Origin: Bacteroidales bacterium
GTDB lineage: Bacteria; Bacteroidota; Bacteroidia; Bacteroidales; GCA-2748055
Direction: 5' to 3'
Length of the DNA: 64,000 nucleotides
Assembly: GCA_021738565.1 (NCBI GenBank)
Contig: JAIPBT010000001.1
Location: forward strand, 1-64,000
Positions 49,165 to 54,395 of the stretch are shown here, piece by piece (positions within the stretch are counted from its first letter, which is position 1; the number at the start of each line of letters is the position of its first letter). The position numbers and the translations under genes were made by a program. The notes under the pieces are model-generated. The model made no database searches, was not told the DNA's origin, and worked only from the letters and a program-made list of their open reading frames with translations.

Positions 49165-49918
49165 CCAGGGGCCAGGGGCCCGCCTTCGCTGAAGCTACGG
49201 CGGAGACAGTGAGACGGTGAGTCAGTGAGTCAGTGAGTCAGTCAGAGACAGTGAGACAGTGCGGTAATGAGCGGTCCCTCGGCAGGATCGGGAACCGGCG
49301 GGTTGGGGTGTGAGGTGGGAAGATCGAGCTTGTCGAGATCGGTTCCTGACAATAAAGACCGGTTCCTGAGCGAAGAGGTGAGCTCCGCCGAACCTCGAGG
49401 AAGGACCCGGGGCAATAATTCCGATCTTTTCCTCTCTGTATAAATGTGGTAACCGTTTAGGAATTACGAACCGATTCGCCGCGGCGAAGAGCTCATGAAC
49501 CCGACAATCAGTCGGGAGAATAATTACGAATATCGAATTACGAATTAGTTAGCCAACCAGTTAACCAGCAACAAGCACCAAGTAACAAAATCAGTTCGTC
49601 AGTGAGACAGTATATGATCAACGGAATTGGCTGGATAGTATTTAAAATACCGCATCACCGCATCACTGCATCACCGCAACACAATTAAGGCCAGGGGCCA
49701 GAGCGAATTTCGAATGTAGAAGTAATGTTTCAATTGTGAATTGCTGCTTTGATAAGCCACTTCATCATTCTACATTCCTTGTTCGATATTCGATATTCCT
49801 TCGGCTTGTACCTCGGCAGGCTCGGTACTGCGCTCAGGAACCGGGTTATTTATTAGATTAAATAAGCGTAATATATTAGACCAGCGCTATATAAATAGCG
49901 AATTAAATATATATATTT
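49165..49918. repeat. intergenic composite repeat desert 1
   Basis: GTGAGTCA tandem units, CGAATATCGAATTACGAATT, AACCAGCAACAAG, TGATCAACGGAATTGGCTGGATAGTATT, GCATCACCGCATCAC modules; no supported ORF. Confidence 0.8.
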
Positions 49919-52896: not shown

Positions 52897-53134
52897 GCGG
52901 TGCACAGAGTCAGCATCATTCCGGCTACGGCACCTGCTTTCCAAGTGTTCTCCTTCCCCCGGACCTGACTTTTCCCCCGGACCTGATTCTTCCCCCAACC
53001 CCGGCCCTTCCCCCGAGGTGGGAAGGGAGGGGTTCTTAAGAGAAATTATGCTTCGTATGATTTTTCCTTTGCCGGGCACATTTACAAAAAAATTGTACGC
53101 GATGGCGCAAAGCGGACTTATGTATGAATTCAGA

Positions 53135-53288: not shown

Positions 53289-53460
53289 CCCCTTCACCCA
53301 CTGGGGGAAGGGCCAGGGTTGGGGGTGACCGATAGCCAGAAGCCAGAAGCCAGGTTTGGGGGTTTTCCCCCTTCACCCACCGGGGGAAGAGCCAAGATTG
53401 GGGTTTGCCCCCCTTCACCCACCGGGGGAAGGGCCGGGGTTGGGGGTGATCGATAGCCAG
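53289..53460. repeat. C/G-rich REP-like repeat cluster, three copies
   Basis: CCCTTCACCCACYGGGGGAAGRGCC at 53289, 53367 and 53408, with GGTTGGGGGTGAYCGATAGCCAGAAGCCAG after copies 1 and 3. Confidence 0.85.
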
Positions 53461-53546: not shown

Positions 53547-53783
53547 ATGCCAACTGTCTTTATTATAAAGGGTTACAGGTTCTTCTTTTTTAGCAATGAA
53601 AATCAGGAACCGATACATATACATGTGGAAAAAGCAGACAATTATGCAAAATTCTGGATTGACCCTGTTTTTGTATCTGCTAATTATGGTTTTAATAGCA
53701 AACAGCTGAAAGAAATAAGTCGTTATATTGAGGGACGCACAGATCTGATAAGACAAAAATGGAATGAGCACTTTAACCAATGA
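53547..53783 (+). CDS. DUF4160 domain protein
   Basis: MPTVFIIKGYRFFFFSNENQEPIHIHVEKADNYAKFWIDPVFVSANYGFNSKQLKEI. Confidence 0.92.
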   Translation: MPTVFIIKGYRFFFFSNENQEPIHIHVEKADNYAKFWIDPVFVSANYGFNSKQLKEISRYIEGRTDLIRQKWNEHFNQ

Positions 53784-54012
53784 ACATATATCACCCTTTG
53801 CCACAAAGGTTTGGTTTACGGAAGATATGATGTACGTCATGCTAACTGACGGAAGGGAAATTGGTGTACCTATTCTCTGGTTTCCAAAACTACGCAAAGC
53901 GACCGGTTCACAGTTAAAGAACTTCCGCCTTATCGGGAATGGAATTGGCATTCACTGGGAAGATCTGGACGAGGATATTTCCGTTGCCGGATTATTAACA
54001 GGCAGGTCCTGA
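53764..54012 (+). CDS. DUF2442 domain protein
   Basis: VWFTEDMMYVMLTDGREIGVPILWFPKLRKATGSQLKNFRLIGNGIGIHWEDLDEDISVAGLL. Confidence 0.92.
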   Translation: MSTLTNEHISPFATKVWFTEDMMYVMLTDGREIGVPILWFPKLRKATGSQLKNFRLIGNGIGIHWEDLDEDISVAGLLTGRS

Positions 54013-54088: not shown

Positions 54089-54097
54089 AACCAAACC

Positions 54098-54395
54098 GGT
54101 TCGACAGTGAGACGGTTCGACAGTGAGACGGTTCGACAGTTCGACAGTAAATGATCAACGGAATTGGCTGGATAGTATTAAAGATACTGCATCACCGCAT
54201 CACCGCAACACAATAAGGCAAACCAGTAACCAGCAACCAGCAACAAAATCAGTTCGACGGTTCGATAGTTCGACAGTAAATGATCAACAGAATCAGCTAA
54301 ATAGCATCTGATATACCGCAACACCGCAACACTGCATCACCGCATCACCGCAACACAATTAAGGCAAACCAGTAACCAGCAACCAGCAACAAGTA
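54098..54395 (+). repeat. two tandem copies of the ~145-bp composite module (desert 2)
   Basis: 54098-54247 and 54250-54395 share TTCGACAGTAAATGATCAAC[G/A]GAAT...GCATCACCGCATCACCGCAACACAAT[T]AAGGCAAACCAGTAACCAGCAACCAGCAACAA; third diverged copy at about 49562-49699. Confidence 0.88.

Follow-up and report, generated by a model that had tools for sequence, protein, structure and literature searches.

A composite intergenic repeat of octamer and heptamer arrays around a 40-bp core in a Bacteroidales genome

The question raised by this locus is what kind of element the tandem module at positions 54,098 to 54,395 represents, and how it has come to occupy more than one site. The window analysed here is the whole stretch of 64,000 nucleotides (positions 1-64000 of contig C50, one of the 83 contigs that make up a genome of 3.98 Mb). 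The initial annotation described two tandem copies and one distant copy of a "~145-bp module" sharing an ordered series of anchors and tracts, and all three (the distant one with its core at 49610-49649) do carry that series in that order. The length fits one measure and not the other: the right-hand heptamer blocks of the tandem copies are 146 bp apart, whereas their cores are offset by 129 bp.

The centre of the repeat unit is a 40-bp core that begins with GTAAATGATCAACGGA and is free of insertions and deletions in nearly all copies (2 of 21 aligned core sequences need a gap or an offset). Octamers flank it on the left in one of two forms: (GTTCGACR)n, which follows the linker AACAAAATCA, or (GTGAGACR)n. 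On its right, a (CYGCAWCA)n array continues in register from the core and is followed by the tail CAATTAAGGCC and heptamer arrays. The full series thus reads AACCAGY heptamers, linker AACAAAATCA, GTTCGACR or GTGAGACR octamers, core, CYGCAWCA octamers, the tail CAATTAAGGC(C) and heptamers again, where the AACCAGY arrays are head-to-tail repeats of a degenerate 7-nt unit with period 7. A reading of the modules around 27 loci gives the same cyclic order throughout, with varying array copy numbers and with copy ends that fall at different modules. Moreover, 25 columns of the core are invariant among 21 distinct copies, and unit variants are confined to few positions.

Within the window, all modules lie on the forward strand; unless a profile score or Tandem Repeats Finder (TRF) is named, their positions were read from the sequence or from word positions. 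The distant copy begins with a degenerate AACCAGY-like heptamer stretch that ends in the linker AACAAAATCA (49556-49593), followed by a left array of two octamers, GTTCGTCA and GTGAGACA (49594-49609), a core of subtype A (49610-49649; 79.1 bits, E 6.5e-22), a right array of four CYGCAWCA units (49650-49681), and the tail CAATTAAGGCC with the first AGGGGCC heptamers (49682-49702). A free-standing array of the octamer GTGAGACA is found by TRF in the same desert (49203-49261). The first tandem copy is preceded by an alternative left linker, AACCAAACCG (54089-54098), which is also found before other GTGAGACR/GTTCGACR arrays. Its left array consists of six units in which GTTCGACA and GTGAGACG alternate (54099-54146; TRF period 16, 100% matches). 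The core of subtype A (54147-54186; 76.8 bits), three right octamers (54187-54210), the tail CAATAAGGCA (54211-54220) and the heptamers AACCAGT AACCAGC AACCAGC (54221-54241) complete it. The linker AACAAAATCA at 54242-54251 joins it to the second copy, which has three left octamers (GTTCGACG, GTTCGATA and GTTCGACA; 54252-54275), a core of subtype B (54276-54315; 72.3 bits), five right octamers (54316-54355), the tail CAATTAAGGCA (54356-54366) and the heptamer array AACCAGT AACCAGC AACCAGC AACAA (54367-54392). The tract numbers vary as the annotation had it: 6, 3 and 2 octamers on the left and 3, 5 and 4 on the right in the first, second and distant copies, respectively. The two neighbouring cores (54147-54186 and 54276-54315) belong to different subtypes and differ at 11 of 44 positions, which means that the pair did not arise by recent local duplication.

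Some other repeated sequences accompany the modules. Tandem repeats with units of 42 and 18 bp are present at 53348-53447 and 52953-52996; the 42-bp unit contains CTTCACCCACCGGGGGAAG, and similar sequence is seen again near L012, L018 and L022. A palindrome-bearing insert (in the forms CTCTGGCAGCCGTAGCCT.. and TTTTAGTAGCCGTAGCCT..) is situated in the right octamer array, in the same phase, in several copies (L021, L025, L018 and L004; G000 C82:4770, C69:19730, C77:62680 and C18:450) and looks as if inherited together with the module. Another shared sequence, GGATTTCATCTATTGAACAACTT..GTAACAGT, precedes two copies in their left flanks (L014 and L027) and represents a further dispersed module.

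How widely is the repeat dispersed? The annotation proposed a search with a profile built from the copies. Such a profile, made solely from the sequences of 21 distinct cores and applied at a threshold of E < 1e-4, finds not just the three copies but 46 matches in the window's own assembly of ~4 Mb, 44 of which can be aligned over the core region. BLAST with both tandem copies returns 73 matching pieces in the genome, and other genome copies match down to E 1e-69, which speaks against recurrence by chance. The copies are intergenic and lie on more than 20 contigs next to different genes. Ten of the 46 lie no more than 1 kb from the end of a contig, against an expectation of about two, and this excess suggests that the true copy number is probably higher than 46. 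The claim of a dispersed, modular family is accordingly borne out. Most arrays in the genome have period 8: 448 kb contain 32 of these and 15 with period 7, while shuffled sequence has 0. The 44 aligned copies share a non-repetitive 40-bp core, which simple heptamer arrays of the known class do not have.

Outside this genome the core has not been found. Among 27 other genomes of the same family, three of them congeneric, the profile gives nothing at E < 0.01 (one 16-bit match, E 0.03, is at noise level). In a sample of ~295 genomes of the same order the sole match is at chance level, lies in G170 and is an unrelated, apparently coding sequence. An exact IUPAC pattern, which diverged copies would escape, is absent from GTDB r220 (~85,000 species genomes) and from IMG/VR, collections from which this genome's own records may have been withheld. 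Phage records contain no match, and plasmid records contain one of 42 bp, in Rhizobium, that covers the heptamer part only. Within the searches made, the composite family is restricted to one species.

The orthologous spacer in relatives is informative in this context. In three congeners, the genes for a short-chain dehydrogenase and 6-phosphogluconate dehydrogenase are ~50-250 bp apart and without the repeat. The corresponding spacer in the window, the second desert, is occupied by 1.6 kb of repeats and by a DUF4160/DUF2442 gene pair, which is positioned between repeats at 53547-54012. In G008, a fourth relative, the spacer on the downstream side of this 6-phosphogluconate dehydrogenase gene contains an octamer array built from a different word, AATGCGAC (L205:14788-14829). 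At two further loci the gene order differs in the relatives, so no empty site could be aligned.

The composition of the arrays provides information about how they change. In left arrays, 41% of unit pairs at a distance of two units are identical, compared with 26% when units are shuffled within each array (a value of 41% is reached in 0 of 3000 shuffles), and left arrays are far more alike internally than the genome-wide pool of units. The excess identity at this distance is the hallmark of slippage in steps of two units (16 bp), in keeping with the "internally slipping" character ascribed to the element. The same test gives no slippage signal in right arrays, which have 1-5 units. Other observations concern reassortment. 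In tests based on hand-set patterns and 44 phylogenetically non-independent copies, such that the p-values are indicative, core subtypes A and B are independent of the left array type (p = 1) and of the first right unit (p = 0.72); the linker AACAAAATCA precedes 15 of 18 GTTCGACR arrays versus 2 of 19 GTGAGACR arrays (p = 1e-5); and, at tandem loci, the first copy is of the GTGAGACR type in 6 of 8 cases while later copies are of the GTTCGACR type in 9 of 9 (p = 0.002). One identical core occurs both beside GTTCGGCG and beside GTGAGACA, and near-identical neighbouring cores are seen at only 3 of 8 multi-copy loci. The independence of core and arrays could in part stem from recurrent replacement of arrays rather than exchange. 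Finally, two sites (C71:85184 and C35:3572, G000) share a fold-back derivative, in which TGGCCCTCCAYCGTCTCACC marks the same junction between a truncated core and an octamer array in inverted orientation.

The explanation that we favor, with a probability of roughly 0.55, is a composite intergenic repeat with no dedicated enzyme, in which slippage accounts for growth and ectopic recombination or template switching at the arrays accounts for spread. The statistics given above demonstrate slippage for array length, while the reassortment, the variable ends and the missing marks of transposition suggest spread through recombination or template switching. Polymerase slippage would lengthen as well as shorten the arrays, which in turn would serve as short homologies. 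Using these, modules would be copied to new sites via ectopic recombination, gene conversion or template switching during replication. Copying of one module onto another would take place in the same way, head to tail where heptamers meet the linker, and spread of this kind would not require a dedicated enzyme. In this reading the elements probably have no cellular function and are tolerated chiefly owing to their intergenic position. Against this explanation, a fixed order over several modules would also fit the mobilisation of a discrete unit, and so would the junction shared by the two fold-back derivatives; the lack of a slippage signal in the right arrays is a further point against it.

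An alternative is a non-autonomous mobile element made up of core and arrays. An enzyme whose gene lies elsewhere, such as a single-strand transposase or a recombinase, would recognise this element and copy or move it whole, and the arrays would slip afterwards. In addition to the constant order and the shared junction, the presence of 46 copies in one species, with none standing out in congeners, is in favor of this possibility. The search for marks of mobility gave a different picture. The module has variable termini and 0 inverted pairs, i.e., no inverted terminal repeats, and flank comparison gives no signal of target-site duplication, as shared flanks between copies average 3.3 nt compared with 3.0 nt in mismatched pairs (a test made with no empty site at base resolution). 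Regarding enzymes, the genome encodes no reverse transcriptase. Its only Y1 transposase gene, of the IS200 type (L110:1472-1912), is broken by an in-frame TAG and has hairpin ends unrelated to the repeat. Hence, the remark that no obvious transposase accompanies the family is upheld as far as Y1 transposases and reverse transcriptases are concerned, while the idea of trans-mobilisation by a Y1-type protein loses its candidate. We consider a mobile element a doubtful explanation, albeit the strongest competitor of the one we favor.

It is improbable, in our analysis, that the arrays are bound by a DNA- or RNA-binding protein with a role in regulation, termination or chromosome organisation. Such a functional element would account for a core of constant length with 25 invariant columns and for unit variants limited to few positions. 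It would be harder to reconcile with the absence of conservation in congeners and with gene orientation around the copies, which is not uniform and departs from background at most weakly (as judged from crude gene calls, spurious matches included). Nor does the module contain a promoter- or terminator-like site. A structured RNA gene was considered and rejected, since the 21 distinct copies give no consensus fold and there is no Rfam family; a suspected GTAT/ATAC hairpin in the core is broken in several copies and was likewise discarded. That the repeat is an artefact of chance low-complexity sequence, contamination or misassembly is very unlikely indeed. The clustering of copies at contig ends might suggest it, but this is expected because repeats break assembly. 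Furthermore, more than 20 contigs carry copies, each time next to different genes; completeness of the bin is 98.5% and its contamination 0.6%; and shuffled sequences are without arrays of period 7 or 8.

How does the family relate to known repeats? The name "short tandemly repeated repetitive (heptanucleotide) sequences" refers to those of heterocystous cyanobacteria. Arrays of GGGGAYT are known in Nostoc and arrays of GGGAATC in Xanthomonas; polymerase slippage has been cited for these, with the contact length of the polymerase as a possible reason for the 7-nt unit (PMC4692102). Like the repeat in the window, the cyanobacterial and Xanthomonas heptamers are intergenic, have a degenerate 7-nt unit, and occur many times per genome in variable copy number. 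The window's repeat differs in that it consists mostly of octamers, with several arrays in fixed order around a unique 40-bp core, and is dispersed as a composite. Direct repeats of TAACTGA are found in Beggiatoaceae, cyanobacteria and five Bacteroidetes; in Beggiatoaceae they are located just before start codons, and a protein-binding role has been proposed (PMC4679880). For two of the TAACTGA-bearing Bacteroidetes, the corresponding spacers in close relatives are shorter and show no obvious repeats; the repeat-bearing spacers contain further heptamers as well (PMC4679880). These are likewise heptamer arrays between genes, Bacteroidetes included. However, TAACTGA is one word across phyla, whereas the window's repeat has species-private words and a unique core, and TAACTGA is missing from the array word list of its genome.

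Similarities to other classes are more limited. REP/REPIN elements and MITEs are also short, non-coding, dispersed and intergenic, with dozens of copies. Unlike them, the module has no palindromic unit of the REP/REPIN type, no inverted terminal repeats and no cognate transposase. Flank comparison gave no signal of target-site duplication. A CRISPR array has identical repeats of 21-47 nt, unique spacers and adjoining cas genes; it was rejected, as the repeat units here are 7-8 nt and without spacers. In the open-access literature we found no composite of such design in Bacteroidales, and the family has no match in Rfam, in phage records or, by exact pattern, in GTDB r220 and IMG/VR. The suggestion that the element is undescribed therefore stands for the sequence family but not for its kind, as intergenic heptamer arrays have been published, including from Bacteroidetes (PMC4679880). 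What is new about the family is its sequence and, as a variant, its design, whereas its kind is known already; the heptamer arrays of cyanobacteria, Beggiatoaceae and Xanthomonas come closest.

Relatives were sampled as stretches of 46-400 kb each, and in these small, partial samples the short-period arrays are mostly of period 7 or 8. G002 has 20 arrays of period 7 and 0 of period 8, G005 has eight of period 7, G006 and G008 have mainly period 8, and G003, G004, G007 and G001 have few or none; the counts for G009 are runs of N. No array word is common to the window's genome and the sampled relatives, nor to any of the relatives among themselves. G005, of the same family but another genus, carries a composite of the same design (L196:9-414 and L237:1-1077; contigs C73, C92, C104 and C4), which was not found in its congener G010. 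Here too, a unique core is flanked by heptamer arrays, a different one on each side, and the unit is repeated in tandem at several sites. In contrast to the window's repeat, it has heptamers only, mostly forms long tandem blocks and is wholly unrelated in sequence. We tentatively raise the possibility of a general process, at work in some members of this Bacteroidales family, that makes species-private intergenic arrays of words of strictly 7 or 8 nt and assembles them around unique cores into spreading composites; the architecture would then have arisen independently, from unrelated sequence, in at least two genera.

To our knowledge, there is no agreed cause for the overrepresented heptamer arrays of bacteria. 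Within this one bacterial family, some species have heptamer arrays, some octamer arrays, some both and some few of either, and the words are private in each case; a family-wide comparison could test why the period is 7-8 nt and what drives the rapid turnover. A word of caution is that repeat DNA of this kind breaks assemblies and can resemble a regulatory element. The composite illustrates how simple arrays can give rise to a dispersed repeat with no enzyme apparent, and the similar repeats of some relatives, with their private words, provide a natural experiment on the origin and spread of repeats.
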